Shown piece by piece: positions 17,864 to 36,742 of a stretch of 37,032 bases of DNA; the stretch's first letter is position 1; every line of letters begins with the position of its first letter. The notes under the pieces are model-generated. The model was given only the letters and a program-made list of their open reading frames with translations. It did no database searches and was not told the origin of the DNA. A program made the position numbers and the translations under genes. This DNA is from Candidatus Anaerobutyricum avicola. Its GTDB lineage: Bacteria > Bacillota > Clostridia > Lachnospirales > Lachnospiraceae. Where the stretch lies: assembly GCA_019113845.1 (NCBI GenBank), contig DXGQ01000037.1, forward strand, positions 1-37,032, in the 5' to 3' direction.

Positions 17864-17936
17864 TGCGCCTTCAGGGGCTCGAACCCTGGACACCCTGATT
17901 AAGAGTCAGGTGCTCTACCAACTGAGCTAAAAGCGC
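17864..17936 (-). tRNA. tRNA-Lys(CUU)
   Basis: The minus strand folds into a complete 73-base cloverleaf: acceptor GCGCTTT, D arm with AGCTCAGTTGGTAGAGC, anticodon stem CCTGA/TCAGG with loop CTCTTAA (anticodon CTT), T arm with GGTTCGAGCC, discriminator A. CCA is not encoded. A consensus promoter lies 41 bases upstream. Confidence 0.96.
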
Positions 17937-18184: not shown

Positions 18185-18331
18185 GAAAGCCTCTTTTTTG
18201 CCAGTTTGATATAGTGTATGCTATAGTTAAAAGAATGATTCCATATGGACTTTTTTGTTCTTTTTTAATATGATATCATGTATGGGATCTGTTACACATT
18301 TACAGGAAAGAATATTTAGATAGGAGATATG

Positions 18332-19006
18332 ATGCGGCTGCTGGTTGTGGAAGATGAGAAAGATCTGAACAGTATCATTGTGAAGAATCTGGAAGCGGAA
18401 GGCTATATTGTCGACTCCTGTTACGATGGGGACGATGCCGTATTTTATATGACAACCATACAGTATGACGCTGTGATCCTGGATGTGATGATTCCGAAGC
18501 GCAACGGGTTTGAAGTGTTAAAGACGATACGGGAAAAGAAGATTGAGACGCCGGTATTATTTTTAACGGCCCGTGACAACGTGGACGATATCGTCTTCGG
18601 GCTGAACAGCGGAGCAGATGACTATATGGTCAAGCCGTTTTCTTTTGATGAACTGATCGCGAGACTTCGGGTGATCGTGAGGAGAAAGCCGGAGGTTCGT
18701 GAGAATATATATACCTGCGGGGATCTGACGTTGAACGTCAACACGAGGCAGGTGACGAGGCAGGGGAAGAAGATTTCTCTCTCGCCGAAGGAGTACGCGA
18801 TTCTGGAGTGTCTGATCAGAAATAAAAATATCGTTCTGACGAGGGCGCAGATCGAATCGAATATATGGGATATGGATTACAACGGGGAATCGAATGTCAT
18901 TGATGTATACATTCGGTACCTGAGGAGAAAGATTGATGATGACTTTGAGGAGAAGCTGATTCATACCGTGAGAGGGGCTGGGTATATGTTAAAATGCAGC
19001 GAGTAA
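18332..19006 (+). CDS. OmpR/PhoB-family response regulator
   Basis: Receiver domain with acidic pair (VVEDEKD), phospho-acceptor Asp near residue 51 (VILDVMIPKRNG), Thr/Ser switch (LFLTARD) and Lys (YMVKPFS), all intact. The winged-helix DNA-binding domain (SLSPKEYAILECLIRNK, IDVYIRYLRRKID, VRGAGYML) follows. The ATG at 18332 is better spaced from AGGAG than the one at 18329. The histidine kinase overlaps its end by 13 bp. OmpR-type proteins bind direct repeats spaced 10-11 bp, and such repeats occur before both nearby sulfotransferase genes, and more weakly before this gene (18253-18269, ahead of TATCAT at 18274), so I infer it controls them. Confidence 0.93.
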   Translation: MRLLVVEDEKDLNSIIVKNLEAEGYIVDSCYDGDDAVFYMTTIQYDAVILDVMIPKRNGFEVLKTIREKKIETPVLFLTARDNVDDIVFGLNSGADDYMVKPFSFDELIARLRVIVRRKPEVRENIYTCGDLTLNVNTRQVTRQGKKISLSPKEYAILECLIRNKNIVLTRAQIESNIWDMDYNGESNVIDVYIRYLRRKIDDDFEEKLIHTVRGAGYMLKCSE

Positions 19007-20367
19007 GTAAGAAAATGTCCATCGCAAAGTACATTTCCATGCATTTTCTTGGGATCACCTTTGCGACGGCAGTGCTGATGGCAGTATTTATCACTTATTT
19101 TTCCGATGTGGCGATCGACTATGATCTGAAAAAGCAGATACGGCGGGAGTCCCGATACGATTATCTGAATATCGGAAAGGTAAACGGTGAGGTTCAGGTA
19201 TCCGATAATTTTGTCTACGAGGATAACGAGATCATCAAGGTGGTACTGGATGCCGAGGGAAATCTGGTGGCAGGTTCCTGGCCGGATGTGAGTCTGTCAG
19301 AATTAAGACCGGTGATGAAGATCGTCCGGGAGATAGACAGCGGGAAGGTGCATTATCTGGTCTATGACCGCTCCATCGTCAAGAGAGATGAGACGGGGCG
19401 GCAGCAGGTGATCGCCTATGTGCGCAGCATGGTGGACCGGGCAGAGCTTTCCAGCGGATACCGGGCGCTGAAATATGCCTCCTATATCTGTGCGGGGGCG
19501 ATCGTCGTGGTATCCACGATTCTGGCGTCCATCTTTTCCCGGCACATCGTGGAGCCGATCAAGCAGATCTGCCAAACTTCCGAGAAGATCGGACTGGAAC
19601 AGGATCTGTCCCAGAGGATTGAGTACGACGGCACATTTCAGGAGATCGAGATACTGGCGCAGGCCAACAACCGGATGCTTGACCGGCTGGAGGAGATGTT
19701 CGAGAGGCAGAAGCAGTTTTCCTCGGATGTGAGTCATGAACTGAAGACGCCGGTCGCCGTCATCATGGCGCAGTGCCAGTACGCCAGAAAGCACATACAG
19801 GATAAAAAAGAGTTTGACGAGGCGATCACAGTGATCGAGCGCCAGGTAAAGAAAACAAATGCGATCATATCGCAGTTTCTGCAGCTTTCCCGGCTGGACC
19901 AGAACAGGATCCACGTGGATCTGGAGTATGTGGACCTCCGGGATATCGTGGAAGAAGTCTGCGAAAATGAAAAACTGAATGATGATAAGAATATCCGTCT
20001 CCGGCTTTCTCTGGAAAAGGCAGAGGCAAAGGTGGATATCGGTCTGATCATGACGGCTGTCCGCAACCTTGTGAACAATGCCATAAAGTACAGTGAGAAA
20101 GACGGAACGGTTGATATTTCCTTAAAAAAGGCGGACGGCTCGGTAGTGCTCACCGTACAGGATCATGGCTGCGGCATGAGCGAAGATGTGAAAAAACATA
20201 TCTTTGACAGGTTCTACCGGGCGGACGAAGCGAGGAACTCCGAAGGGTTCGGACTGGGGCTTTCCATCACTGCCAGGATCGCGCAGCTGCATTCCGGCAG
20301 GGTCACGGTGGAGAGCGAGGAGAAAAAGGGAAGTATTTTCCGACTGATCCTTCCGGGAACGCTTTAA
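18994..20367 (+). CDS. sensor histidine kinase
   Basis: A 457-residue membrane kinase, partner of the overlapping response regulator. Membrane helices lie near residues 17-37 and 163-183, with a sensor loop of about 125 residues between them. A HAMP-like segment follows (IVEPIKQICQTSEKIG). The phosphorylated His is residue 248 in SDVSHELKTPVAV. ATP-binding boxes are intact: AVRNLVNNAIKYS (N), VQDHGCGM (G1), IFDRFYRAD (F), GFGLGLSI (G2). The signal is unknown. The coding end touches the promoter of the first sulfotransferase gene. Confidence 0.94.
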   Translation: MQRVSKKMSIAKYISMHFLGITFATAVLMAVFITYFSDVAIDYDLKKQIRRESRYDYLNIGKVNGEVQVSDNFVYEDNEIIKVVLDAEGNLVAGSWPDVSLSELRPVMKIVREIDSGKVHYLVYDRSIVKRDETGRQQVIAYVRSMVDRAELSSGYRALKYASYICAGAIVVVSTILASIFSRHIVEPIKQICQTSEKIGLEQDLSQRIEYDGTFQEIEILAQANNRMLDRLEEMFERQKQFSSDVSHELKTPVAVIMAQCQYARKHIQDKKEFDEAITVIERQVKKTNAIISQFLQLSRLDQNRIHVDLEYVDLRDIVEEVCENEKLNDDKNIRLRLSLEKAEAKVDIGLIMTAVRNLVNNAIKYSEKDGTVDISLKKADGSVVLTVQDHGCGMSEDVKKHIFDRFYRADEARNSEGFGLGLSITARIAQLHSGRVTVESEEKKGSIFRLILPGTL

Positions 20368-20390: not shown

Positions 20391-20451
20391 AAACTGCAAC
20401 AATGTGGACTGCCATGAGATGGCTGTCGTAAAAAGAGAAAGGTTTGAAATA

Positions 20452-21612
20452 ATGAAAACATTATATATTCATATAGGAACACCAAAGACAGGAACAACAT
20501 CTTTACAGCATTTCTGCACGGAAAATGCACAGCTTTTTGAGGAAAAGGGGTACAGCTACCCGATTTTTCCACATAAATTCAAATATATCAATATCATGAG
20601 AAACGGATATTTCCTGTCTTATAAAGGGTATGATGAGAACAGAAACCGGGATCTGATGGATGAGGAGAAGTTCTTCCGTCAGGGGATGGATTTTGTTCTG
20701 GATAATTTCAAGAAGACAGACAATATCATTTTATCCGATGAGTCCATCTGGAATGTAGTGTTCAAGAGAGGAAAGCCGGACTTGTGGGAGCGTCTCAGAA
20801 AAGAGGCGGACGCGCACGGCTATGTGATCAAAGTGATCGTTTATCTCAGAAGACAGGACAGCCTGGCTACTTCCTGGTGGAATCAGAAGATCAAGATCGG
20901 AAAGCGTGTGTATTCCAAAGCTTCCTGGGAGAAGTTTGTCAGTGACCCGACAAGACTGGAGCTCAACTATTATGAGCCGCTCAAGATCATTGAGAAATCC
21001 GTCGGAAAGGAAAACATGATCATCCGCCGGTTTGGAAAGCAGTACTTTAAGAACGGGTCTATTTTTGAAGATTTTATCGATGCGGTCGGTATGAAGTACA
21101 GCAGCAGATTTGTCATCTCCGAGGGACAGAGAAATGTAAGCCTGGTGGGAAATGCGCACGAGATCAAGAGAATCTTAAACGCGATCCCGGATCTGAGCGA
21201 CCAGAACAATACATTTTTCCGCAGGATCGTGATCGCCATGTCAGAACAGCGCGCAGACTTAAAGTCAGAGACGATGTTCTCCGCTGAGGAGGCGCTGGAG
21301 TTCATGGAGCAGTACCGGGAAGGCAACCGCAAGATCATGCAGGAATACTTTGGAAAAGACGAAGATCTCTTCGATATGGACTTTTCAAAGAATAAGAAAT
21401 GGGTTCTCGACCACAAAGAGATGGAGAAAGATATCATCCGTTTTATGGGACGTGCCATCATCGAGCTTCGGAGAGAGAATAAGGAACTGAAAAAGAGGGT
21501 AAAAGCGACAGAGATAGAACTGTCCGAGCAGAGAGAGATGATCAGGGATATTCAGGCGAAACTTGATAATCCTGTAAAGACTATGCTTTTTTCCATCAAG
21601 AAGAAGAGATAA
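20452..21612 (+). CDS. sulfotransferase-like protein 1
   Basis: A 386-residue cytosolic protein predicted to move sulfate from PAPS to an acceptor. The N-terminal HIGTPKTGTTSLQ (residues 7-19) is the loop that binds the 5'-phosphosulfate; VIVYLRRQDSLATSWW (128-143) fits the 3'-phosphate site with its Arg and Ser. The last about 45 residues are a coiled coil (ELRRENKELKKRVK) with a basic end. A GAAAGG site precedes the start at 20452; the upstream ATG at 20404 lies in a leader hairpin. Close relatives are at 22554 and 33768. PAPS would be made by cysD/cysNC 11 kb downstream. The acceptor is not identifiable; a surface glycan is my best guess. Confidence 0.8.
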   Translation: MKTLYIHIGTPKTGTTSLQHFCTENAQLFEEKGYSYPIFPHKFKYINIMRNGYFLSYKGYDENRNRDLMDEEKFFRQGMDFVLDNFKKTDNIILSDESIWNVVFKRGKPDLWERLRKEADAHGYVIKVIVYLRRQDSLATSWWNQKIKIGKRVYSKASWEKFVSDPTRLELNYYEPLKIIEKSVGKENMIIRRFGKQYFKNGSIFEDFIDAVGMKYSSRFVISEGQRNVSLVGNAHEIKRILNAIPDLSDQNNTFFRRIVIAMSEQRADLKSETMFSAEEALEFMEQYREGNRKIMQEYFGKDEDLFDMDFSKNKKWVLDHKEMEKDIIRFMGRAIIELRRENKELKKRVKATEIELSEQREMIRDIQAKLDNPVKTMLFSIKKKR

Positions 21613-21716
21613 GAGAAAAACACATGAATCGGACAGCGGACAGGTATGCTTTTTTTAAAGAGAGAGAAAAATATGAGTTGCTTTGAGAAGGAAAATCCAT
21701 GAAAGGAGAAGTTGTT

Positions 21717-22403
21717 ATGAGACGTAATACCATCTTTTTAGTGGAAAAAAGCGTGGATTACATTAAAGAGTTTTGCGGATTTTTTGATAAGGACTATGAC
21801 ATTTTGTTTTCTTCTGACGGCGAAAAAGCGATGGAACTGTTTGCGGAAAATAATACGGACATTCATCTTGTATTGCTGGATGACAGAGTCTGTGAAAAGA
21901 AACGGTTTGATATTCTGGAAGAGATACGTGCCTTCTGCGATGTGCCGGTGATCGTGCTCATGGAAAAAGAGGAGCCGGAGCTGCAGATCATGGCGTACCG
22001 CATGGGGGCGGACGAGTGCGTCTCCGGCGATATCACTCTTCCTCTGTTAAAAATGAAGCTGGAAGCCATCATCAAGAGAGTTTACGGAACCGATAATTCC
22101 ATCCAGGAGGGGATTCTGGAGTTGGATCTGGATAAACGAACGCTGAAGGTGGACGATGAGTACGTGGATATCACGATCAAGGAATTTGAACTCCTTGCCT
22201 TCTTCATGCGGAATAAACATACGATCCAGAGTCGGGATCAGATCATCACGGCAGTCTGGGGGATCAATTATGAGGGCAGCGACCGTGTGGTGGATTCTCT
22301 TGTGAAGAAGCTCAGACTGAAGTTAAAGGGCGCTTCAGATTATATTCATACCGCCTATGGTATGGGATATTATTTTGAGCTTCCCGTGAAGGAGCCGGCA
22401 TAA
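21717..22403 (+). CDS. orphan OmpR-family regulator with degenerate receiver
   Basis: A 228-residue protein with an intact winged-helix DNA-binding domain (ITIKEFELLAFFMRNKH, RVVDSLVKKLRLKLKG, TAYGMGYYFE). The receiver keeps an Asp at the phosphorylation position (LVLLDD, about residue 55), but the acidic pair at the start is replaced (FLVEKSVD), the Thr/Ser switch is Met (VIVLMEK), and the conserved Lys is missing (ECVSGDITLP). Such pseudo-receivers usually do not depend on phosphorylation. AAAGGAG 8 bases before 21717 fixes the start. It lies between two sulfotransferase genes with no kinase partner and no clear terminator before it, so it may be read with sulfotransferase 1. Confidence 0.85.
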   Translation: MRRNTIFLVEKSVDYIKEFCGFFDKDYDILFSSDGEKAMELFAENNTDIHLVLLDDRVCEKKRFDILEEIRAFCDVPVIVLMEKEEPELQIMAYRMGADECVSGDITLPLLKMKLEAIIKRVYGTDNSIQEGILELDLDKRTLKVDDEYVDITIKEFELLAFFMRNKHTIQSRDQIITAVWGINYEGSDRVVDSLVKKLRLKLKGASDYIHTAYGMGYYFELPVKEPA

Positions 22404-22553: not shown

Positions 22554-23645
22554 ATGAAGACATTATATCTACACATTGGAACACCGAAAACAGCGACAAC
22601 CTCCCTGCAGCATTTTTGTGAGGAAAATGAGACGATCTTCAAAGAGAATAATTATTGTTATCCGCTCTTTCCCCGCAAATTCAGGCATATCAATATTTTG
22701 AGAAACGGATTTTTCCTCTCCTATAAATGTTACGATGAGAATGGAGACCGAAGAGAACAGGAAGAGGAAGCCTGTTTCAGACAGGGAATGGACATGGTTC
22801 TGGAACATTTCCGTACATATGATAATGTCATTTTATCGGACGAGTCCATGTGGAGCGTTGCCTTTAAGAGGGGAAAACCGGAGCTCTGGGAAAAAATCCG
22901 CAGGGAAGCGGATGAGAATAACTATCGGGTGAAAGTGATCGTCTACCTGCGAAGGCAGGACAGTCTCGCGGATTCCTGGTGGAACCAGAAGGTAAAAAAC
23001 GGGAAGAGAATCTACGCGACTTCCTCCTGGGAGGACTTTACCAGGGACCCGTCGCTTCTGGAACTTCATTATTATGAGCCGATAAAACGTATCGAGCAGT
23101 ACATTGGAAAAGAAAATATGATCCTTCGCCGTTTTGTCATTTCCAATGAGGACAGAAATATCCGGCTCTTTGGCAACACCCATGAGATCAAGAGAGTCCT
23201 GAATATGCTGCCGGAGCTCAGCGATGCGGATAATCTGTTTTTTAAGAGGATTACCATCAGTATGTCGGAACAGCGCACAGAACATAAGGGGGAGACGATG
23301 TTTTCCGCGTAGGAGGCGCTGGAGTTTATGGAGCCGTTCCGGGAAGGCAACCGGAAGCTTATGGAGGAATACTTCGGGAAAGACGAAGACCTCTTCCGAA
23401 TGGACTTTTCCAAAAACAGAAAATGGACGCTCGACAACACGGAGATGGAGAGAGATATCATCAGCTTTATCGGCAGTGTTGCCGTACAGCTCCGACAGGA
23501 AAACCGTGAACTGCGTGCCCGTATGCAGACGATGGAGAAAGAGTGGAGCGCCAGCAGGAAGAAGGCGGAAGAAAAAGAATCCGGAAAGAAAAATCCGCTT
23601 CGCAAGGTGGTGCGGGGGCTGAAAGTGAAAACAACCGGAAGATAG
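22554..23645 (+). pseudogene. sulfotransferase-like protein 2, inactivated
   Basis: A close paralogue of sulfotransferase 1, opening with HIGTPKTATTSLQHF and keeping VIVYLRRQDSLADSWW. Two lesions are visible. About 26 residues present in both other copies (the stretch from GKQYFKNG to the second RF in copy 1) are deleted in frame, so RRF joins directly to VISNEDRN. A GAG codon in copy 1 is TAG here (23310-23312), cutting the protein at 252 residues; the frame then continues for 111 codons with clear homology and the coiled-coil end. The promoter and the start with GAAGG are intact. A truncated product could still be made, but normal function is unlikely. Recent inactivation fits the otherwise well-kept sequence. 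Confidence 0.88.
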
Positions 23646-24688: not shown

Positions 24689-25585
24689 ATGAATATCTGC
24701 ATGTTGATTTTTCTATTTTGTCTTGCTGTCTGCATGTTTGCCCACGGATCGTGGAAGGGGAGAGGACGCCGGGGAGGCGGATTCGGACATCGCCACGGGG
24801 GTTCCATGTTGTCAGTGGATTATTTTGCCTACGCCTCCGCTCTCAGAAAATGGAATGCGGTTTTCAAGGCGGTGTTTGCCACAGCGTGTCTGCTGCTGTG
24901 TATTATTCTGAATAATATATATGTCTCCATCCTGGTGATCCTGGTGATGGGATATCTGACCGTGGTCATCGGCGGGATGTCTTTTCGCCAGTATCTGTCG
25001 ATGATGCTGGTGCCGGTCGTGTTTTTGCTGCTGGGAAGCGTGGCCATCGCCGCGGGATTTTCGATGGAACCGGCGGGGCAGTATCAGCTTCGGGTGTTCG
25101 GATTATTTTATATCTACTGTTCCGATGCGAGTCTTCTTCGGGCAGCAGAGCTTGTGTTGAAGGCGCTGGGAGCAGTGAGCTCTCTGTATATGCTGACATT
25201 GACGACGCCGCTTGGAGAGCTCATCACGGTGCTTCGCAAAGCGCATGTGCCGAAAGTGCTTGTGGAACTGATGCATATGATCTACCGGTACATTTTTATC
25301 ATGCTGGATACACACAGCCGGATGAAGAATTCGGCGGAATCGAGACTGGGTTATGTGGATTTTAAGACATCGTGCTATTCTTTTGGGCAGGTGGCGAGTA
25401 ACCTTCTCATCGTCTCGCTGAAAAGAGGAAATGCGTACTATAACGCGCTGGAATCCCGGTGTTATGACGGAGAGCTTCGTTTTTTGGAGGAGGAAAAGCC
25501 GGTGCAGGGACGACAGATCGCACTGGCAGCGGGTTTTGTGATTCTGCTATTTTGTGTGTGGTTATTGGGGAAGTACATGAATTGA
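24689..25585 (+). CDS. cbiQ: cobalt ECF transporter membrane component CbiQ
   Basis: Energy-coupling (T) component that links CbiM to the ATPase CbiO. The usual CbiQ start (MLSVDYFAYASALRKWN) is at residue 40; here it is preceded by a membrane-like stretch and a Gly/Arg/His run (GRGRRGGGFGHRHGG). GAGGGA before 24689 supports the longer form. The ATG at 24806 would give a normal-sized protein, but with a weaker site. The coupling motif region (ESRCYDGELRF; TTPLGELI) is present, as are about five membrane helices. First gene of a cbiQ-O-M-N operon. Confidence 0.88.
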   Translation: MNICMLIFLFCLAVCMFAHGSWKGRGRRGGGFGHRHGGSMLSVDYFAYASALRKWNAVFKAVFATACLLLCIILNNIYVSILVILVMGYLTVVIGGMSFRQYLSMMLVPVVFLLLGSVAIAAGFSMEPAGQYQLRVFGLFYIYCSDASLLRAAELVLKALGAVSSLYMLTLTTPLGELITVLRKAHVPKVLVELMHMIYRYIFIMLDTHSRMKNSAESRLGYVDFKTSCYSFGQVASNLLIVSLKRGNAYYNALESRCYDGELRFLEEEKPVQGRQIALAAGFVILLFCVWLLGKYMN

Positions 25586-25607
25586 CGGAAGTGACGAGGA
25601 CAGCAGA

Positions 25608-26465
25608 ATGGAATGGAAGAAAGAAAAACAGTCGGAAAAAGATGCGGTTCTGGAAGTCAGAGACCTGCACTTTTCCTACAATGATGAAAAGCACGCCTTA
25701 AACGGTGTGGATGTAAAGATTTATGAGGGAGAAAAGATCGCGGTGCTTGGCTCCAACGGAGCGGGAAAGTCCACCTTTTTTCTGAGTATCAACGGGGTAT
25801 TGAAACCGCATGCGGGAGAGGTCATCTACCGGGGCGAGAAGATAACAAAAAAGAGGCTGAACCATCTCAGAAAAAATGTGGGTATCGTTTTTCAGGATGC
25901 GGACAACCAGATCATCGCCTCCACGGTGATGTCGGAAGTCGCTTTTGGTCCCATGAATTTAAAACTTCCCCGGGAAGAAGTACTGCGCCGGGTGGACAAG
26001 GCACTGGACTATATGAATATCACAGAGTTTCGGGACAGACCGCCGCATTATCTGAGTGGCGGGGAGAAAAAGCGGGTGAGTATCGCGGATATCATCGCCA
26101 TGGAGTCGGAGGTAATCATCTTTGATGAGCCGACGGCGGCGCTGGACCCGCTCAATGCGCAGATGCTGGAGGAAGTGCTCCGGAAGATGGGGGAGGAAGG
26201 AAGGACGATCCTGATCTCCACCCACGATGTGGATTTTGCCTACCGCTGGGCGGAGAGAGTGCTGGTCTTTCATCAGGGAAAAATCATCGCCGATGACACG
26301 CCGCTTCGGGTCTTTCATCAGGAGGAACTCTTAAAAAAGGCGAACCTCCGGCATCCGATGTTGTACGATGTCTGTGAGATATTGAAGAAAAAAGGGATCA
26401 TTCCTGACGGGGAAATGTACCCGAAAAATATGGAGGAATTCCGTACGATGACAGATCATCTATAA
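25608..26465 (+). CDS. cbiO: cobalt ECF transporter ATPase CbiO
   Basis: ABC ATPase of 285 residues driving cobalt import. Walker A is GSNGAGKST, the Q-loop is FQDADNQI, the signature is LSGGEKKRVSIA, Walker B is VIIFDEPTAALDP, and the switch His follows in ISTHD. The C-terminal extension (MLYDVCEILKKKGIIP) is typical of CbiO. GAGGA precedes the start by 7 bases. It lies 22 bp after cbiQ. Confidence 0.93.
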   Translation: MEWKKEKQSEKDAVLEVRDLHFSYNDEKHALNGVDVKIYEGEKIAVLGSNGAGKSTFFLSINGVLKPHAGEVIYRGEKITKKRLNHLRKNVGIVFQDADNQIIASTVMSEVAFGPMNLKLPREEVLRRVDKALDYMNITEFRDRPPHYLSGGEKKRVSIADIIAMESEVIIFDEPTAALDPLNAQMLEEVLRKMGEEGRTILISTHDVDFAYRWAERVLVFHQGKIIADDTPLRVFHQEELLKKANLRHPMLYDVCEILKKKGIIPDGEMYPKNMEEFRTMTDHL

Positions 26466-26529
26466 AGAAAAGCAGCGATTTCATAGTGCATAGTACTGAA
26501 AATAATAAGTAAGAAAGAAGGAGATGAAC

Positions 26530-27267
26530 ATGATGTTAAAGAGAAGAGAAAAACTGAGCATTCTTGCATTTGCTCTGCTGGTGGTATTTGCGGTGGCGCC
26601 GGTATCCAATGCCATGCATATCATGGAAGGATATCTGCCGGTGACGCACTGCGTATTATGGATGGTAGTCTGTCTGCCATTTCTGGTCCTCGGGCTGGTG
26701 AATATTAAAAAGGTTCTGCGGGACGACCGGCGGACTCTGATGGTTCTGGCGCTCACGGGAGCTTTTGTGTTTGTGCTTTCTTCCCTGAAGATCCCGTCCG
26801 TGACGGGAAGCTGTTCCCATATGACAGGGACCGGTCTGGGAGCGATCCTTTTCGGACCGTGCGTGACGAGTATCCTCGGCGTGATCGTTCTTTTATTCCA
26901 GGCGGTTCTGCTGGCGCACGGCGGGCTGACGACGCTGGGAGCCAACTGCTTTTCCATGGCGATCGCAGGACCGATCCTCGCTTATGCGGTGTACAAGCTC
27001 TGCTGCAAGATGAACGTCAATAAAAAAGTGACCGTGTTCCTCGCGGCGTTTCTGGGAGACATGTTTACCTACTGCGTGACCAGCGTGCAGCTGGCTGCGG
27101 CGTATCCGTCCGAGGTCGGCGGTTTCGGCGCTTCACTGGTGAAGTTCCTCGGTATCTTTGCGGCGACACAGATTCCTCTGGCGGTCATCGAGGGTATCCT
27201 CACCGTCGTGATCGTGATCGCGCTGGAGACTTACGCGAAAAATGAGCTGAGAAGCCTGAGTTTCTGA
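26530..27267 (+). CDS. cbiM: cobalt ECF transporter substrate component CbiM
   Basis: Membrane S component that binds the cobalt ion. A signal peptide ends near SNA; the mature N-terminus MHIMEGYLP carries the Met-His metal site, which needs this cleavage. [19 protein letters not shown] and [16 protein letters not shown] are family motifs. AGAAGGAG supports start 26530 over the ATG at 26524. Followed by cbiN after a 126-bp gap without a clear promoter. Confidence 0.93.
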
Positions 27268-27393
27268 GTCGCGGAACATGAGCGGAGAAGAGTTTTTGAT
27301 CTGCGGAAAATAAGTGGAGGAGCGTAAGCTTCTGTTTCACAAAAATGAGTGAAAAAAACAGAGTGACGGGAAAAATTTGACAGGAGGGAGAAC

Positions 27394-27750
27394 ATGAGTA
27401 AAAATACGAAAACTGTTATTATCTTATTAGTGATCGCTGTTCTGATCGCCATCGTTCCGCTGTTTGCACTTCGGAATGCGGAGTTCGGCGGTTCGGACGA
27501 TGCCGGCAGCCAGATGATATCGGAGATTCAGGGAGAAGAATACGAGCCGTGGTTTACGCCGGTTCTCGAAAATGTTCTCGGCGGCGAACTGCCGGGAGAG
27601 GTGGAGAGCATGATTTTCTGCGTGCAGACCGGCATCGGCGTCGGTATCGTTGCCTTTGTGCTTGGACGGTATGTGGAGCGCAGGAAGTGGATGGACAAGG
27701 AAGAAAAAAAGACTTCGTATGAGAAAAAAGAACCGCTCAAAGAGGAATAG
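27394..27750 (+). CDS. cbiN: cobalt transporter accessory protein CbiN
   Basis: Small membrane protein of 118 residues with two helices (TVIILLVIAVLIAIVPLFAL and IGVGIVAFVLGRYVERRK) around an external loop. The loop has the CbiN pattern FGGSDDAGSQMI and EEYEPWFTPV. It works with CbiM to load the metal. AGGAGGG sets the start. A charged tail (EEKKTSYEKKEPLKEE) follows the last helix and is longer than in enteric CbiN. Confidence 0.92.
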   Translation: MSKNTKTVIILLVIAVLIAIVPLFALRNAEFGGSDDAGSQMISEIQGEEYEPWFTPVLENVLGGELPGEVESMIFCVQTGIGVGIVAFVLGRYVERRKWMDKEEKKTSYEKKEPLKEE

Positions 27751-29547: not shown

Positions 29548-30960
29548 ATGAAGAAGATATTGATGCGTTCGGCGATGCCGCTGGACGGAGGAAAAAATGT
29601 TTCTGAGATTCTGCTCCATAATCTCATCGGCAACAATACCGGCAATCTGATCTTTCAGACCAGCGTTGCCCGGACGGTGATGACGGAGGATGTGGAGATC
29701 ACCACGATCCGCACAGACAGAGTCTATTCGGACGAGCAGGTGGAGCAGTGGAATGCTGAGTACGACCTGTTCCTGATTCCTCTTGCCAATGCATTTCGCA
29801 TCACGTTCATGGCAGAGCTTCGGATTCTCACGAACCTGGTAAAGAGGATGAAGATCCCCTGTGTGGTCGTCGGCGTGGGCATGGCGAGAAAGGTGAACTC
29901 CCGCAAATGGAAGTTCCGCTACGATGACGAGGCCGTTGCGTTTACGCGTGCCGTTCTGGAGAAGTCCCCCATGGTGGGGCTTCGCGGAGAGATCACGGCA
30001 GAGTATCTGAAGAGAAAAGGCTTCGTGCCGGAAAAAGATTTCACCGTGATCGGCTGTCCGTCCATGTATATGTATGGAGACCGGCTGCCGGAACTGCAAA
30101 AGACCGAACTTACCCCGGCGTCAAAGGTGACTATGAACTTCAAGTCGACGCAGATCCCGAGGCTGTATCGTTTCCTGCGGGCGCAGGGAGAGCTGTTTGA
30201 ACACTCCGTGTTTGTGACACAGCTTCTCGATGAGATTCAGACACTGTATGTGGGCGAGCCTTTCTTTGACAAAGAGCTCAAGAAAACGATACCGGAAGAT
30301 TATCCGATGCATTTCACCTCTCCCCTTATGCGGGAGAACCGGATCGCAGGCGTGGTGGACATCCCGTCCTGGTTTTCTTACCTTCGCGGACAAGATTTTA
30401 ATTTTGGCAGCAGGATTCACGGCAATATCGCTGCGATCCTTTCTGGAACGCCGTGCTATATCATCGCGGGCGACTGCCGGGTAAAGGAACTGGCGCAGTA
30501 CCATCACATTCCTCACATAACGGTTAACGACGTCACGGAGGAGACCAGCGTATTTTCTCTCTATGAACAGGCGGACTACGGGCAACTTTTTGTCGGTCAT
30601 TCGGAGAGGCTGAGCCGTTATCTGGATTTTCTGGACAAAAGCGGAGTGCCCCATATCAGCAGAGAGGCGATGAGCGGCCGGGATACCCCGTTTGACCGGC
30701 GGTTCGGCAGCAGAGAAGGAGCAGGGATCATCGAACCATTTCCTGTTGTATCGCCTGAGGAGCAGGAGAGACGTCTGGCAGAATACTTCCGGGCATACCG
30801 GAACATCAGGCAGACACAGGCAGAAGCGCTGGAGACCCGGAACAGACGGGCGGCAGCCCTGCAGGAAGAGGTGCAGGCGCTTCGAAGGGAACTGGCGGAG
30901 ATAAAGAGCAGCCGGTTCTACAAAATGAAAAACAAATACGATGCATTCAGAAAACGTTAA
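29548..30960 (+). CDS. polysaccharide pyruvyl transferase-family protein
   Basis: A 470-residue protein of the PF04230 family, which adds ketal pyruvate from phosphoenolpyruvate to sugars of surface polymers. Landmarks are NTGNLIFQTSVAR near the start, VVGVGMA in the middle, and FGSRIHGNIAAILSGTPCYII near residue 289, the C-terminal donor-binding signature. The last about 55 residues are a coiled coil (ALQEEVQALRRELAEIKSS) ending in a basic FYKMKNKYDAFRKR, much like the ends of the sulfotransferases in this window. AAAAGGA precedes the start. Only 77 bp separate it from cysD with no clear promoter between. It is the best hint that the sulfated product is a glycan. Confidence 0.82.
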   Translation: MKKILMRSAMPLDGGKNVSEILLHNLIGNNTGNLIFQTSVARTVMTEDVEITTIRTDRVYSDEQVEQWNAEYDLFLIPLANAFRITFMAELRILTNLVKRMKIPCVVVGVGMARKVNSRKWKFRYDDEAVAFTRAVLEKSPMVGLRGEITAEYLKRKGFVPEKDFTVIGCPSMYMYGDRLPELQKTELTPASKVTMNFKSTQIPRLYRFLRAQGELFEHSVFVTQLLDEIQTLYVGEPFFDKELKKTIPEDYPMHFTSPLMRENRIAGVVDIPSWFSYLRGQDFNFGSRIHGNIAAILSGTPCYIIAGDCRVKELAQYHHIPHITVNDVTEETSVFSLYEQADYGQLFVGHSERLSRYLDFLDKSGVPHISREAMSGRDTPFDRRFGSREGAGIIEPFPVVSPEEQERRLAEYFRAYRNIRQTQAEALETRNRRAAALQEEVQALRRELAEIKSSRFYKMKNKYDAFRKR

Positions 30961-31037
30961 TATCAGAGCAGGGAGCCTGCATGTTCCCCTCTGTTGTTAT
31001 ATATTACATCAAATCTACAGAATAGGAGTATGATATC

Positions 31038-31940
31038 ATGAGTGATATGACACATCTTGATGCGCTGGAAGCGGAAGCGATTTATATTATGCGTGAAGTT
31101 GTGGCAGAATGTGAGAAGCCGGTCATGCTGTATTCCATCGGCAAAGATTCTTCGGTTATGCTGCATCTGGCGTTAAAGGCTTTTTACCCGGAAAAACCGC
31201 CGTTCCCGTTCCTGCACGTAAATACCACATGGAAGTTTAAAGAAATGATCGAGTTCCGTGATAAGACGGCAAAAAAATATGGTCTTGATATGATCGAATA
31301 CATCAATGAAGAAGGCGTAAAACAGGGGATCAATCCATTTGACCACGGCGCAGCCTACACGGATATCATGAAAACGCAGGCGTTAAAGCAGGCGCTTGAC
31401 AAATATGGATTCACCGCAGCCTTCGGCGGCGGCCGGAGAGATGAGGAAAAGTCCCGTGCCAAAGAGCGTATTTTCTCCTTCCGTAACTCCAGCCATGCCT
31501 GGGATCCGAAGAATCAGCGTCCGGAAATGTGGAAACTGTACAATACCCAGATCCATCAGGGCGAGGAAATGCGTGTGTTCCCGATCTCCAACTGGACAGA
31601 GTCCGATATCTGGCAGTATATCAAGCGGGAGAATATTGAGATCGTGCCGCTGTACTTTGCCGCAGACCGTCCGTTTGTGAGAAGAGACGGCAACATCATC
31701 ATGGTGGATGATGACAGAATGCGCCTGAGAGAGGGCGAGAAGATCGAACACGGAAAGATCCGTTTCCGTACCCTCGGCTGTTATCCGCTGACCGGTGGAA
31801 TCGAGAGCGATGCGGATACTCTTGACGCCATCATCGAAGAAACTCTGAGTGCTGTATCGTCAGAGCGTACCAGTCGTGTCATCGACAGCGACGGCGGAGC
31901 AGCCAGCATGGAAAAGAGAAAGAGGGAGGGTTACTTCTAA
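31038..31940 (+). CDS. cysD: sulfate adenylyltransferase subunit 2
   Basis: Catalytic subunit of the ATP sulfurylase heterodimer; makes adenylyl sulfate (APS) from ATP and sulfate. The PP-loop SIGKDSS is at residues 33-39. [37 protein letters not shown] and REGYF at the end are family hallmarks. The 300-residue length is standard. AGGAG 10 bases upstream sets the start. cysNC follows after one base. In enteric bacteria this leads to sulfate reduction, but here the next genes are an APS kinase fusion and a sulfotransferase. Confidence 0.95.
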
Positions 31941-31941
31941 A

Positions 31942-33768
31942 ATGAATAGTCTTCTTAAATTTATCACCTGTGGAAGTGTGGACGACGGTAAGTCCACCTT
32001 GATCGGGCATATGCTTTATGATGCCAAATTATTATTTGCAGACCAGGAAAAAGCGCTGGAGCTGGACAGTAAGGTCGGTTCCCGCGGCGGCGCCATCGAC
32101 TACTCCCTTCTGCTGGACGGCCTGATGGCAGAGAGAGAGCAGGGGATCACCATCGACGTGGCATACCGCTACTTCACGACAGACCACCGCTCCTTCATCG
32201 TGGCGGATACCCCTGGTCATGAAGAATATACGAGAAACATGGCGGTAGGCGCTTCCTTCGCAGATCTGGCGGTCATCCTCGTGGATGCCACCCAGGGCGT
32301 GTTGGTGCAGACCAGAAGACACACCCGTATCTGCTCTCTGATGGGTATCAAGCACTTTGTCTTCGCCGTAAACAAGATGGACCTCATCCATTACGACGAG
32401 AACCGCTTTGACAAGATCCAGAAAGAGATCAAGATGATGATGGGAGAGTACGATTACAACTCCATCAAGATTCTTCCGGTCTCCGCCACAGAAGGCGACA
32501 ACGTCACCGTAAAATCCAGCCACATGCCGTGGTACAAGGGCGAGTCCCTTCTTACTTATCTGGAGAACATCGACGTCCATGAGAATCCGTCTGAGACAGG
32601 ATTTACCATGCCGGTACAGAGAGTGTGCCGTCCGGACCGTACCTTCCGTGGATTCCAGGGACAGATCGAGACAGGCGAGATCCGCGTGGGCGATGAGATC
32701 ACCGCGCTTCCTTCCAATGAGAAGGCAGAGGTAAAAGGAATCATCGACGCCGGCAAAGAAGTGGAGGCTTCCGACGCCGGTCACGCTGTGACGATCTCCC
32801 TCGACCGTGAGGTGGACGTATCCAGAGGATGCGTTCTCGTAAAAGATACGGCGCCGGCTGTCGGCAATCTGTTCACCGCAGAGCTGTTGTGGATGGATGA
32901 CTCTTATCTGGTTGCCGGAAAGAACTATCTGTTAAAGCTCGGCACGAAGATGGTTCCGGCCGTTGTCATGAACATCAAATATAAGATCGACGTCAACACA
33001 GGAAATGAAGTGCATGCCGATACCATTTATAAAAATGAGATCGCGGTCTGCGATATCTCCGTTTCCGATAAGATCGTCTTTGATAAATTCAAAAAGAATC
33101 AGGCGCTCGGTTCCCTGATCCTCATCGACCGTATCACAAATATGACTTCCGCCTGCGGCGTTGTGATGCATTCTCTGCGTCGTACTGATAACCTGACCTG
33201 GCATGAGATGGATATCACCAGAGAGTTCCGCGCACAGCAGAAAGGCCAGCAGCCAAAGACCATCTGGATGACCGGTCTGTCCGGTTCCGGTAAGTCCACT
33301 CTGGCAAATGAGCTGGAAAAACGTCTGGCAGCCCTCGGCAAGCATACCATGCTTCTGGACGGCGACAATGTCCGTATGGGTCTGAACAAGAACCTTGGTT
33401 TCAAGGAGGCAGACCGTATCGAGAACATCCGCCGTATCTCCGAGGTGGCGAAACTGATGAACGACGCCGGTCTGATCGTCATCACTTCCTTCATCTCCCC
33501 GTATGTGAGAGACAGAAGAAAAGCGAGAGAGATCATCGGTGAGGACAGCTTCATCGAAGTATATGTGAACACTCCGCTGGAAGAGTGCGAGAAACGGGAT
33601 GTGAAGGGCTTATACAAGAAGGCGAGAGCCGGCGAGATTCCGAACTTCACCGGAATTTCCAGCCCGTACGAAGCGCCGGAACACCCGGATGTGACGATCG
33701 ACACCAGCGCTATGCCGCTTGAAGATTGCGTGGACGCACTTCTCAAGCAGATTGAGGGACAGATTTAA
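31942..33768 (+). CDS. cysNC: sulfate adenylyltransferase subunit 1 fused to APS kinase
   Basis: A 608-residue bifunctional enzyme. The N-terminal GTPase (CysN) drives APS formation by CysD: GSVDDGKST (11-19), DTPGHEEY and NKMD are its G1, G3 and G4 boxes, followed by two beta-barrel domains. The C-terminal APS kinase (CysC) makes PAPS: Walker A GLSGSGKST at 445-453, DGDNVRMGLNKNLGF, and SFISPYVRDRR. The start at 31942 follows GGGAGGG at the end of cysD. The stop codon overlaps the ATG of the sulfotransferase (TAATG), so the PAPS-using enzyme is translationally coupled to the PAPS-making one. Confidence 0.95.
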   Translation: MNSLLKFITCGSVDDGKSTLIGHMLYDAKLLFADQEKALELDSKVGSRGGAIDYSLLLDGLMAEREQGITIDVAYRYFTTDHRSFIVADTPGHEEYTRNMAVGASFADLAVILVDATQGVLVQTRRHTRICSLMGIKHFVFAVNKMDLIHYDENRFDKIQKEIKMMMGEYDYNSIKILPVSATEGDNVTVKSSHMPWYKGESLLTYLENIDVHENPSETGFTMPVQRVCRPDRTFRGFQGQIETGEIRVGDEITALPSNEKAEVKGIIDAGKEVEASDAGHAVTISLDREVDVSRGCVLVKDTAPAVGNLFTAELLWMDDSYLVAGKNYLLKLGTKMVPAVVMNIKYKIDVNTGNEVHADTIYKNEIAVCDISVSDKIVFDKFKKNQALGSLILIDRITNMTSACGVVMHSLRRTDNLTWHEMDITREFRAQQKGQQPKTIWMTGLSGSGKSTLANELEKRLAALGKHTMLLDGDNVRMGLNKNLGFKEADRIENIRRISEVAKLMNDAGLIVITSFISPYVRDRRKAREIIGEDSFIEVYVNTPLEECEKRDVKGLYKKARAGEIPNFTGISSPYEAPEHPDVTIDTSAMPLEDCVDALLKQIEGQI

Positions 33769-35246
33769 TGCCAACACTGTATATACACATGGGAACGCCG
33801 AAGACGGCGACCACATCCATTCAGATGTTTTTCGTGGAGAATCAGGAGCGTTTCCGGGAAAAGGGATACAGCTATCCGCTTCTGGATTTCGTGTATCCCC
33901 ATGTGGCCCACCGCAGGAACGGACATTTTCTGGTAGGCCGGGTCTTTAATCCGGATAAGACAGAAAATGTGGAGATGGAACAGGAACTTTGGGAGAGAGG
34001 TCTTGCCATGATTCACGGGGAGTTTGAGAAATATCCGAACGTTATCCTCTCCGATGAAAATATCTGGCACGCCTCCCTCGGCTCCAAGTTCGAGTTCTGG
34101 GAGAAGATCAAAGCCGACGCGGCGGAGCACGGATACGATATCAAGGTCATCGTCTACCTGCGCCGCCAGGACGGGCTTGCCATCTCCTGGCTCAGCCAGC
34201 AGGTAAAAGAAGGCTGGAACACCAATGCCTGCATCAAATGGACGTTTTTTAAGAAAAAGACCCGGAAGATCGTTCTGAATTATTATAATCATCTGGAGAA
34301 GATCGCCGCGGTCATCGGCAAAGAAAATATCATCGTCCGTGTATTTGAGAGGGGCAAATTTAAAGGAAACGGAAATACGATTTTTTCTGATTTTTTGGAG
34401 GCAGTAGGATTGGAATATAAAGATGAATATCAGATAACGGAAGCAGAAGCGAACAAATCTCTCACCGGAAACAGTCAGGAGATTATGCGGATCGTGAACT
34501 CCGTGCTCCCGGACAATCCGCGGGTTGTCGCTTTTATGAGAAACGCAGCCATGGCCTGTGAAGAATTAAAAGACCCGGAGAACAACTTTACCATGTTCTC
34601 CAAAGAAGAGCTCACCGCATTTCTCAAACGCTATGAGAAATGTAATGAGTCCATCGCGAAAGAATACCTGCACCAGGATGAGCCGTTGTTTGACACGAAG
34701 ATCAAAGAAGGCGAATGCTGGACGCCGGAAAACCGGTTCATGTATGAGGATATCATCCGCTACTTCGCCGATGTGGTCGTAAGACAGCAGGAGTGCATCG
34801 ACAAGATGACACAGGATATGAAACGGCTCAAAGAGAGCCGGATTGACGCTGTCAAACAGTACGCGGCAGAGTTTGAGCTGGAAAGACGCCAGGAAATGGA
34901 AGAGCAGGGCATCACACCGGAGGAAGAAGAAAAGTTCGAGACGGTCAGCGAGGTCATCTTAAACCAGCACAGAGACATCGAAGACATGGAAGAGACAACC
35001 AGAAAAATCGAGACGACAGACAACCGGATCCATGCGCTTCGGACAGAGAACCTGCTTCTCAAAAATGAACTGGTCGACCTGAAACGGGAAAATATGGAGA
35101 TGCGCAAACTGGCAGACCAGAGAGAGCGGGAGAACAAAAAGGATAAAAAAGAGCTGGAAAAAATGATCAAAGAGCTGCGGGAGGACGTCTTCTTCTACAG
35201 ACTCAAGAGAAAGATGCGTCATATTTCCGGCAAAGATGAACAGTAG
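33768..35246 (+). CDS. sulfotransferase-like protein 3 with long coiled coil
   Basis: A 492-residue relative of the two upstream sulfotransferases. HMGTPKTATTSIQMF (7-21) is the 5'-phosphosulfate loop and VIVYLRRQDGLAISW (about 126-140) the 3'-phosphate region. It keeps the middle segment lost in copy 2. From about residue 335 to 480 it is a strongly charged coiled coil, three times longer than in copy 1, ending with FFYRLKRKMRHIS. No signal peptide or membrane helix is visible, so it should act in the cytosol, perhaps docked to membrane enzymes by the coil. The start overlaps the cysNC stop by one base. The acceptor is unknown; surface glycan precursors are a fair guess. Confidence 0.85.
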   Translation: MPTLYIHMGTPKTATTSIQMFFVENQERFREKGYSYPLLDFVYPHVAHRRNGHFLVGRVFNPDKTENVEMEQELWERGLAMIHGEFEKYPNVILSDENIWHASLGSKFEFWEKIKADAAEHGYDIKVIVYLRRQDGLAISWLSQQVKEGWNTNACIKWTFFKKKTRKIVLNYYNHLEKIAAVIGKENIIVRVFERGKFKGNGNTIFSDFLEAVGLEYKDEYQITEAEANKSLTGNSQEIMRIVNSVLPDNPRVVAFMRNAAMACEELKDPENNFTMFSKEELTAFLKRYEKCNESIAKEYLHQDEPLFDTKIKEGECWTPENRFMYEDIIRYFADVVVRQQECIDKMTQDMKRLKESRIDAVKQYAAEFELERRQEMEEQGITPEEEEKFETVSEVILNQHRDIEDMEETTRKIETTDNRIHALRTENLLLKNELVDLKRENMEMRKLADQRERENKKDKKELEKMIKELREDVFFYRLKRKMRHISGKDEQ

Positions 35247-35299
35247 CGCAGTCGACGTTACAAATGAAAAGCAGTATAAAAATCTACGAGGCATCAACG

Positions 35300-36742
35300 A
35301 TGAACACAAAAAAGTTTATGTCAATGATCACGACCATGCTGAAGATTGGCTTTATAGGATTTGGGGGCGGTACCGCCCTCATTCCTGTTATAGAAGAGGA
35401 GATCGTAGAAAAAAACAAGATCGTGACCGAAGAACAATTTAACAATGAAGTAATGATCGCCAGCATCACGCCGGGAGCCCTCCCGGTGGAGATCGCCAGC
35501 GGGATCGGCTACCAGACCGATGGCAACCGGGGCATGATGGCGGCAGCCTCCGCCATGGCATTTCCCGGCGCCTTCCTGACGGTGCTCTTTCTCGTTCTCT
35601 TCTCCAGCGCCGGCGCGTCGGTAAAGACGCAGATCAGCTATCTGGCAGTAGGTATTTCTGCTTATATTATACTGACGCTGATCAAATACTGCACCGGCAC
35701 CCTGCAGCAGGCGAAAGACAAGAGTGAGATGATTCTGTACCTGATCATCATGATGGGCGTCTTCCTTCTCTCCGGAGAGGCAAGCATTTACCGGATTCTC
35801 GGTCTGTCCATCACACCGATATTCGGTATCTCCACCATCCAGATACTGGGAGCGGCCTTCTTCGTCATCCTGTTTACGAAAGGACAGCCGCGGGACAAAA
35901 AACGGGCAATCCCCGCCCTGTTTATCGCCCTGCTGTACTTTCTGTGCGCCGGAGAGGCGCACATCATTCCGGAGATGCTGCAGCCTTTCCTGGTCGGACT
36001 GATGATCCTCCTCTCCATCATCGGCATGGTACAGACACTGATGGACAGTAGCCAGAAACGGGCATTTGCCGGAAAGGCACTGACTATTTCCCTCATATGC
36101 TGGGGCTTATTTACCGTGATCTTATCCTTCCCGGCCATCATTTCCTTGCCGGGAGTAGCAAGATATATCGGCGACGGATTCCTGTCTTCTGTCCTCTCCT
36201 TCGGTGGAGGCGACGCCTACCTGTCTGTGGCCCAGGGAATGTTCGTGGACAGCGGCATGATCGGCTACCATGACTTTTATCAGAACATCGTCTCCGTTGC
36301 CAACGCCCTGCCGGGCTCCATTCTCTGCAAGATTCTGTCCGGCTGTGGCTACGTCCTCGGATACCAGCAGAGCGGCTCCGTGACCCTCGGTCTCTTCATG
36401 GCCATCTGCGGCTTCGCCTGCAGCGTGGCAGCCTCCGGCGCCATCGTCATCGTCGTCCGGATGATATACGATAAATACGAAAATCTCCGTATCTTCGCGG
36501 TGGTCAAACACTTTATCCGCCCGATCATCTCCGGCCTGCTGCTCAACGTGGCATTGTCCCTGTACTTATCCGGCATCCTCGAGATCGCCGGCGGCGGACT
36601 GAGCATGACGATACTATCCATCATCACTCTGCTCATCATCGTACTGGTTTTCGCCATCGAGCAGAAAAAAGACATACATTTGCTGTGGAAGATCGTGTTG
36701 GCAGCGGTCATCTCCTCTGTGGGATGTAATTTATTTGTATAA
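35300..36742 (+). CDS. CHR-family transporter (ChrA-like), candidate sulfate importer
   Basis: A 480-residue protein with two CHR domains in one chain. Each opens with the family motif: IGFIGFGGGTALIPVIEEE near the start and SFGGGDAYLSVAQGMF in the second half; NEVMIASITPGALPVEIASGIGYQ follows the first. About ten to twelve membrane helices. CHR proteins are named for chromate export, but chromate is a sulfate analogue and sulfate transport has been proposed for the family. Here the gene lies last in a cysD-cysNC-sulfotransferase operon, so I infer sulfate movement. Start 35300 has a weak GAGG site; 35264 is possible but has none. Confidence 0.85.
   Translation: MNTKKFMSMITTMLKIGFIGFGGGTALIPVIEEEIVEKNKIVTEEQFNNEVMIASITPGALPVEIASGIGYQTDGNRGMMAAASAMAFPGAFLTVLFLVLFSSAGASVKTQISYLAVGISAYIILTLIKYCTGTLQQAKDKSEMILYLIIMMGVFLLSGEASIYRILGLSITPIFGISTIQILGAAFFVILFTKGQPRDKKRAIPALFIALLYFLCAGEAHIIPEMLQPFLVGLMILLSIIGMVQTLMDSSQKRAFAGKALTISLICWGLFTVILSFPAIISLPGVARYIGDGFLSSVLSFGGGDAYLSVAQGMFVDSGMIGYHDFYQNIVSVANALPGSILCKILSGCGYVLGYQQSGSVTLGLFMAICGFACSVAASGAIVIVVRMIYDKYENLRIFAVVKHFIRPIISGLLLNVALSLYLSGILEIAGGGLSMTILSIITLLIIVLVFAIEQKKDIHLLWKIVLAAVISSVGCNLFV

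Follow-up and report, generated by a model that had tools for sequence, protein, structure and literature searches.

A predicted sulfate-activation and sulfotransferase operon in Candidatus Anaerobutyricum avicola and its relatives among the Lachnospiraceae

Introduction

Gut bacteria are known chiefly for stripping sulfate from host mucin. For its transfer to an acceptor, sulfate is activated by CysD and CysN, which make adenosine 5′-phosphosulfate (APS), and this is converted into 3′-phosphoadenosine 5′-phosphosulfate (PAPS) by the APS kinase portion of CysNC. In Sinorhizobium meliloti, the PAPS synthesis genes nodPQ go together with nodH, whose sulfotransferase product decorates the carbohydrate-based Nod factor, and in animals the sulfotransferases NDST and 3-OST are enzymes of the Golgi. 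Here we describe a locus of Candidatus Anaerobutyricum avicola (Lachnospiraceae) in which cysD, cysNC, a putative sulfotransferase (ST) gene and a CHR-family transporter gene follow one another, and which on balance is likely to be a dedicated sulfation module. The stretch analysed, hereafter the window, is the entire contig DXGQ01000037.1 of 37,032 nucleotides (C9 of the 2.87-Mb genome, which is 98% complete).

Comparable systems are described from other bacteria. RaxP, RaxQ and RaxST of Xanthomonas, an ATP sulfurylase, an APS kinase and a sulfotransferase, act together (PMC4216712), and the anaerobe Pontiella sulfatireligans has putative glycosaminoglycan STs and a detected sulfated exopolymer (PMC7356697). 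PAPS-dependent sulfation by gut bacteria is tied mainly to Bacteroides in two reports (PMC9417993, PMC10932419), the second of which also reports a wide distribution. The survey of gut sulfotransferases in that same report started its BLAST searches from BT_0416 and an ASST (PMC10932419), and for this reason it probably would not reach the ST family considered here. No description of this family or of a Firmicutes PAPS sulfation operon was found among the titles and abstract starts listed from the Creative Commons-licensed PubMed Central literature, which is weak evidence of absence.

Results

Gene organization of the operon

All genes of the operon lie on the forward strand. The first, cysD (31038–31940), encodes the small subunit of ATP sulfurylase (NCBIfam NF009214, 514 bits against a cut-off of 413) and is followed by cysNC (31942–33768), a fusion of the ATP sulfurylase large subunit with APS kinase (NF004035, 859 bits against 715), by the putative PAPS-dependent sulfotransferase gene ST_C (33768–35246), and by the gene of a CHR-family anion transporter (35264–36742; PF02417, 130.5 bits in two stretches against a cut-off of 28.6), which probably transports sulfate for the operon. 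The initial annotation had described these four genes as an uninterrupted series with a complete APS kinase, and the coordinates and junctions confirm it. Read directly, the cysD/cysNC junction is TAA-A-ATG with a gap of a single base, cysNC and ST_C overlap in TAATG, and 17 bases separate ST_C from the CHR gene. None of the three gaps holds a terminator-like site in a terminator scan that was noisy overall (20 sites over the region scanned, where 9.9 were expected, mostly within genes). The APS kinase domain of CysNC covers positions 2–152 of the 152 in PF01583.

The polysaccharide pyruvyl transferase gene that had been noted upstream (29548–30960, forward strand) is likewise real (PF04230, 55.4 bits against a cut-off of 25.3), but the 77-base gap between it and cysD holds one weak terminator-like hairpin (30971–30988), so that this accessory partner may form a unit separate from the cysD operon. 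The protein scores 22.7 bits against the CsaB equivalog, below the cut-off of 213.1.

The same gene order is found in relatives. Of 13 same-genus genomes with cysDNC, ten have the order cysD-cysNC-ST-CHR (the window and nine of 12 relatives) and 11 have an ST directly after cysNC (the window and ten of 12). The operon of G016 is without CHR, and in G002 and G012 CHR comes directly after cysD-cysNC while the STs are encoded elsewhere in the genome. Given this conservation across same-genus genomes, the gene order is not a product of chance. The pyruvyl transferase lies upstream of cysD in five of the 13 (the window, G014, G009, G021 and G008), and in G016 it lies downstream of the ST instead.

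A sulfotransferase family with conserved PAPS-site residues

ST_C has no match to any Pfam or NCBIfam family at E up to 0.01, and no credible match came from searching PDB sequences with either ST_C or the family profile as query. A second intact member of the same family, ST_A (20449–21612, forward strand), is 36% identical to ST_C and matches no Pfam family at the same threshold in a search against Pfam. In PAPS-dependent sulfotransferases, the 5′-phosphosulfate loop reads K-T-x-T-T/S after strand 1, and the 3′-phosphate site consists of an Arg and a Ser eight residues apart. Both sites are evident in an alignment of 114 sequences, comprising 113 distinct frames of at least 300 residues and the window ST_A as the numbering reference, in which ST_A is therefore counted twice and close relatives are included. 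In the 5′ loop, Lys13 is present in 112 sequences (Arg in two), Thr14 in all 114 and Thr16 in 107 (Ser in the other seven), and at the 3′-phosphate site Arg134 is found in 113 and Ser142 in all. His8 and Glu98 are also invariant, and Arg135 occurs in 107. By its position, Glu98 may correspond to the catalytic Glu of NDST and 3-OST.

The AlphaFold2 models are confident, with a predicted local distance difference test score (pLDDT) of 91.2 for ST_A and 85.5 for ST_C; in the latter, a long C-terminal helix that ends in a basic tail extends the globular portion. The top eight Foldseek matches of ST_C are all sulfotransferases, the bacterial 3rnl followed by seven of the heparan-sulfate type. For ST_A the first hit is also a sulfotransferase, and the top four are 3rnl, AGAP001425, a toxin-antitoxin complex and 3-OST5. 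The matches to 3rnl, 3bd9 and 8ccy have E-values of 2e-4 to 2e-3, a probability of 1.00 and a template modelling (TM) score to target of 0.24–0.59. The sulfotransferase fold class is supported by these models, and since the Foldseek scores are modest, they do no more than suggest the heparan-type subgroup. The initial call of a sulfotransferase from its two PAPS-binding motifs is in this way borne out by residue conservation and by the predicted fold.

Co-occurrence of the sulfotransferases with APS kinase

A scan of the named genomes for this family returned at least 477 related stretches, and the best 80 of these were kept as loci. Almost all of the 80 are titled Lachnospiraceae, Eubacterium, Roseburia, Blautia or other Clostridia, with A. 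hallii included, while a few are titled only as uncultured bacterium and one as Bacteroidales. CysNC-like matches are present in 36 of the 80 (BLAST best hits, a few of which may be other GTPases). Outside the genus lie 71 of the loci, some of them sharing one genome, and from these 50 further ST-bearing genomes were drawn, comprising all 35 listed whose fetched flank shows no CysNC and 15 whose flank contains it.

The presence of an APS kinase (E up to 1e-20) in 48 of these 50 genomes is the strongest evidence that the STs would use PAPS. It is found in 33 of the 35 genomes without CysNC in the flank and in all 15 with it, the misses being G204 and G226, and the baseline is 16 of 171 genomes outside the genus. 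The baseline derives from a set of 195 genomes (24 of the same genus and 171 outside it), of which 29 have a true APS kinase, defined as a match above 100 bits; 35 further genomes with weak matches of at most 26.2 bits were dropped as P-loop noise, and ST counts exclude G020 (fragments) and G157 (E 6e-4). Within the genus, 13 of the 24 genomes have both ST and kinase, ten have neither, none has the kinase alone and one, G011, which is 84% complete, has the ST alone (Fisher 5.6e-6, uncorrected for ancestry). The conserved residues, the predicted fold and this co-occurrence together support ST_C and ST_A as PAPS-dependent sulfotransferases.

Fate of PAPS

PAPS reductases carry PF01507, and the only match to this family in the genome is CysD itself, with all 14 control genomes matched. 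No CysH (TIGR00434) exceeds its cut-off in any of the 195 genomes, which comprise the own genome and its relatives, nor in any of the 50 other ST-bearing genomes, with seven of the 14 controls above it in each search. Weak CysH matches of 42–57 bits occur in nine of the 50, eight of them in long frames of 535–799 residues. Long PAPS_reduct-type proteins (535–811 residues) are present in some relatives, including G007, G009 and eight of the 50 ST-bearing genomes, and some of these could be reductases; the own genome has none. The AprB domain (PF12139) has no match in the own genome and none in any control genome either. By the pattern of CysD-like matches, a second CysD-like gene with a frame of about 305–310 residues stands outside the operon in G018 (C5:6703-7071) and G005 (C1:572600-572968).

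The initial annotation had seen neither a PAPS reductase nor a sulfite reductase gene. The former statement holds genome-wide for PAPS reductase, and the latter does not, as asrA, asrB and asrC score over their NCBIfam cut-offs on contig C14 (L056:6856-9707, G000:C14) and a NirA-like protein is encoded on contig C28 (L055:8741-10393, G000:C28), although below its cut-off. Since there is no CysH, these sulfite reductases do not appear connected to PAPS, and they may serve other sulfite sources. No full assimilatory pathway was found despite them, and the suggestion that sulfate is activated here for something other than cysteine is upheld by the single PF01507 match, by the lack of CysH in both genome sets and by STs that track APS kinase. 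PAPS is very probably made for transfer and not for cysteine.

The CHR transporter

An ortholog of the CHR protein (E up to 1e-20) is found in 19 of the 195 genomes, and 17 of the 19 have a true APS kinase (Fisher 7e-15 overall and 7e-5 outside the genus, ancestry uncorrected). Outside the genus, the two genes lie within about 2 kb of each other in G051, G105 and G114 and on separate contigs in G044 and G052, while G094 and G106, which have CHR and no true APS kinase, hold a CysD-like match 2–3 kb from CHR, measured end to end. Since CHR directly follows cysNC with no ST between in G002 and G012, it appears from its gene context to be tied to sulfate activation more than to any one ST. The identity of the CHR proteins is 59–91% across the nine same-genus relatives that have it. 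The protein falls far below the cut-offs of the NCBIfam chromate-efflux models (71.9 against 171.7, 70.5 against 250 and 58.3 against 250 bits), and it probably is a sulfate transporter, in one direction or the other. A Bacillus study treats CHR pumps as chromate exporters with possible sulfate co-extrusion, and an entry in its reference list describes the family as probably including chromate/sulfate antiporters (PMC8940164). Of the earlier suggestion that the operon takes up sulfate, the strong tie of CHR to sulfate activation stands, and import is the proposed direction.

A linked two-component system

Upstream of the operon, a response regulator (RR1) and a histidine kinase (HK), both identified by Pfam, are encoded at 18329–20367 on the forward strand, and a second OmpR-type regulator, RR2 (21699–22403, forward strand; PF00486, 78 bits), lies downstream of ST_A, which is thereby placed between HK and RR2. 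The order RR1-HK-ST-RR2 is kept in several same-genus relatives; in G010, which is 84% complete, RR1-HK is followed directly by RR2, the ST being absent from the set, and a search for APS kinase found none. The link of the pair to STs extends to several lineages. Nine of the 71 loci outside the genus have counterparts of RR1 (61–64% identity) and HK (37–41%) near the ST or cysDNC, and a tenth has the HK counterpart alone. The RR1 counterparts stand two to five genes from the ST or cysDNC on the same strand, and other regulator matches reach at most 40%. The sensor part of HK scores at least 80 bits in ten of the 195 genomes, nine of which bear STs, the tenth being G010; in one HK-bearing genome, G080, the sole ST genome outside the genus in this set, the pair is not adjacent to the ST.

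Neighbouring proteins of 130–900 residues were also compared near to and far from STs, using random samples (seed 1) of 110 proteins each, drawn after dereplication from 205 proximal proteins (292 before) and from 124 distal ones (144 before), excluding the nine same-genus loci and all ST, CysD and CysNC matches. The families considered are the 25 commonest of 167 (proximal) and of 154 (distal), so that single-member families are mostly unseen. The histidine-kinase domain is present in six of the 110 ST-proximal proteins, whereas the distal families that count at least two members among the 110 do not include it, while response regulators account for eight proximal and five distal proteins. 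The RR1/HK pair plausibly controls the sulfation programme, a proposal for which confidence is evenly balanced.

A tRNA gene (17864–17936, reverse strand) lies upstream of the two-component locus; it was the single hit of the Rfam search, which at the gathering threshold found no riboswitch in the window.

Further sulfotransferases in the window and in relatives

A third, decayed ST gene, ST_B (22554–23645, forward strand), is split into two pieces, as its frame stops at 23312 and the homologous remainder covers 23328–23645. Its counterpart at this position is full-length in G021 (L045:15452-16609) and a remnant of 188 residues in G009 (L036:13188-13754). Neither ST_A nor ST_B had been noted in the initial annotation. 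The genome has no match to the ST family other than ST_A, ST_B and ST_C. Between the two ST loci of the window lies a cobalt transport set, CbiQ-CbiO-CbiM-CbiN (24689–27750), in an order that is kept in several relatives.

Other lineages have different arrangements. In L131 (4956-15686), five STs stand in a row, and behind them come a pyruvyl transferase, a TarL-like enzyme (scoring below its cut-off), a ribitol-phosphate cytidylyltransferase (scoring over its own) and an epimerase-like gene; judging by its gene content the locus is possibly one for a sulfated teichoic-type polymer. L130 (8840-13482) holds ST genes of 754 and 793 residues, each seemingly with two tandem ST domains, which stand behind cysDNC and genes for PF04464 (CDP-glycerol-type) transferases, with TarF-like proteins and an ABC ATPase also present. 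In L086 an ST lies near Stealth and PF04464 proteins, and the gene layout of L093 is alike on comparison of layout alone. In L049 (11392-13134), L067 (11346-12881) and L075 (11365-12900), all of other lineages, the gene behind the ST is of a transport type. It encodes either an ABC binding protein resembling NMT1, accompanied by an ATPase, or a symporter-like protein (25–26% identity to the SSF protein of the window), and may serve as an alternative uptake gene.

Discussion

Proposed pathway and acceptor

The findings are consistent with a pathway in which CHR would import sulfate, CysD and CysN would turn it into APS, and the APS kinase half of CysNC would yield PAPS, from which cytosolic ST_C and ST_A, by their predicted activity, would pass the sulfuryl group to an acceptor. 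The acceptor would be an envelope glycan or a glycolipid intermediate on the inner side of the membrane, to which a coiled coil and the basic tail may anchor the STs. There, a second acidic group may be contributed by the pyruvyl transferase encoded next door, and the RR1/HK pair would control the programme. As a whole, with envelope acceptor and two-component control included, this explanation is somewhat favoured; for the acceptor taken by itself, a membrane-bound envelope polymer or glycolipid, the balance is about level.

Several indirect signs favour an envelope glycan or glycolipid. First, the ST in the slot behind cysNC diverges quickly. In ten relatives its identity to ST_C is 90, 89, 89, 73, 59, 54, 45, 43, 34 and 32%, and that of CysNC in the same ten is 79–98% (local alignments throughout), so that acceptor specificity may vary while the supply of PAPS stays. 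Next, a net charge of at least +2 over the last 20 residues is found in 105 of 113 STs, compared with 26 of 113 at the control residues 101–120, and such basic tails are as expected for membrane-held proteins. The pyruvyl transferase ends in a coiled-coil-like stretch and a basic 'FYKMK' tail like that of the STs, and its family, that of the polysaccharide pyruvyl transferases, acts on polysaccharide. Finally, the predicted heparan-type fold and the few polymer loci in relatives point in the same direction.

A number of observations weigh against this explanation. The listed glycan-assembly families are not commoner beside STs than far away in the near/far comparison, with glycosyltransferase (GT) family 2 in two of the 110 proximal proteins and three GT2, three GT1 and three Glyphos_transf proteins among the 110 distal ones. 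The window has no glycan cluster, the glycan cluster of the own genome (on C10, with rml-type and GT-like genes, recognised by eye) is without the tail motif, and the pyruvyl transferase is present in just six of 13 same-genus operon regions. The CHR proteins that have been studied export chromate (PMC8940164), and uptake by CHR is an inference. Outside the genus, the 195-genome set contains one ST genome, G080, in which the kinase is present (Fisher 0.09), and APS kinase without an ST of the ST_C family occurs in 15 others, so that the kinase also has other uses; the co-occurrence tests moreover ignore shared ancestry. Within the genus the link between HK and STs is weak (eight of nine against six of 15, Fisher 0.02). 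As for the family itself, Arg135 is absent in seven of the 114 sequences and Arg replaces Lys13 in two, the Foldseek list of ST_A mixes P-loop kinases, GTPases and a toxin-antitoxin complex among the sulfotransferases, and the Foldseek matches score modestly, with E-values from 2e-4 to 5e-3 and a TM score to target of 0.2–0.6.

The tail motif was also not found in the own-genome regions around PF04464 genes. Neighbourhood enrichment came out negative and was rejected as a way to prove in general that the acceptor is a glycan. The surface glycan that the initial annotation had considered the most likely acceptor is accordingly left with the indirect signs of slot divergence, tails, fold, pyruvyl transferase and polymer loci in relatives, and with no enrichment of glycan families near STs.

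Alternative roles

The STs might instead sulfate small molecules such as sterols, bile acids or phenols, as BT_0416 of Bacteroides thetaiotaomicron does with cholesterol. The Bacteroides layout is closely parallel, with the putative PAPS genes BT_0411 to BT_0415 beside BT_0416 and with BT_0412 proposed as the sulfate importer (PMC9417993), and the lack of glycan-gene enrichment near STs would suit a small acceptor. However, BT_0416 was selected by BLAST with human SULT2 enzymes (PMC9417993), whereas neither ST_C nor ST_A has a match among the Pfam models of sulfotransferases and the predicted fold of ST_C is closer to the heparan-sulfate enzymes than to SULTs. Basic tails and a rapidly diverging slot are also ill-suited to a fixed soluble substrate, and a small-molecule role is considered unlikely.

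Sulfation of a protein or secreted peptide, in the manner of RaxST of Xanthomonas with RaxP and RaxQ, is less probable still. It would involve the same three-part chemistry (PMC4216712) and would agree with the position of ST_A inside a sensor-kinase locus, but no peptide exporter is recognised among the operon genes, although short peptide genes were not searched for, and the neighbours of the STs are varied among relatives. Assimilation, by which PAPS would be reduced to sulfite and then to sulfide by AsrABC or the NirA-like protein, is highly improbable and was rejected as the role of the operon, since the 195-genome set and the 50 other ST-bearing genomes have no CysH above its cut-off, CysD is the sole PF01507 match of the own genome and APS kinase tracks the STs, although asrABC and a NirA-like gene are present in the genome and the long PAPS_reduct-type proteins of some relatives could be reductases.

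Implications

The ST family, which neither Pfam nor NCBIfam models match and which goes with APS kinase in 48 of the 50 genomes tested, is widespread in gut Lachnospiraceae. Should the acceptor be an envelope polymer, sulfated surface glycans or lipids would be products of common commensals and could influence recognition by lectins and the immune system, the adsorption of phages and the competition for sulfate. A broader reading is put forward tentatively and is rather doubtful at present: sulfation across the Lachnospiraceae by an undescribed ST family, supplied by CysD/CysNC and a CHR importer and under dedicated two-component control, with STs diverging or exchanged in the slot and strains bearing differently sulfated, partly pyruvylated envelope polymers. 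In that case, related strains of butyrate producers would differ in the sulfation of their envelope polymers.

Comparison with known sulfation systems

The operon shares with NodPQ-H and RaxPQ-ST the genetic linkage of CysD, CysN, APS kinase and an ST. The likeness to NodPQ-NodH lies in the pairing of PAPS synthesis genes with an ST, whereas the operon of the window additionally has a CHR transporter and a linked two-component system, and the parallel is drawn by description. In Xanthomonas, the raxST operon holds type I secretion genes and a secreted-peptide substrate is presumed (PMC4216712), whereas no such exporter is recognised in the operon of the window. BT_0411 to BT_0416 likewise combine, in a gut bacterium, putative PAPS genes, an ST and a proposed sulfate importer, but BT_0416 is a sterol-acting ST found via SULT2 similarity (PMC9417993), while ST_C has no Pfam ST match and carries a long, basic-tailed helix. 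The STs of P. sulfatireligans carry PF13469, and one lies inside a glycosyltransferase cluster (PMC7356697), in contrast to ST_C, which has no PF13469 match and no adjacent glycosyltransferase genes. Among solved structures, the folds nearest to ST_C after 3rnl are those of the heparan-sulfate sulfotransferases NDST and 3-OST, at about 11–16% identity to the window STs and a TM score to target of 0.2–0.6. By analogy, the operon may work like NodPQ-NodH, RaxPQ-RaxST and BT_0411 to BT_0416, its ST being likened to theirs by description only.

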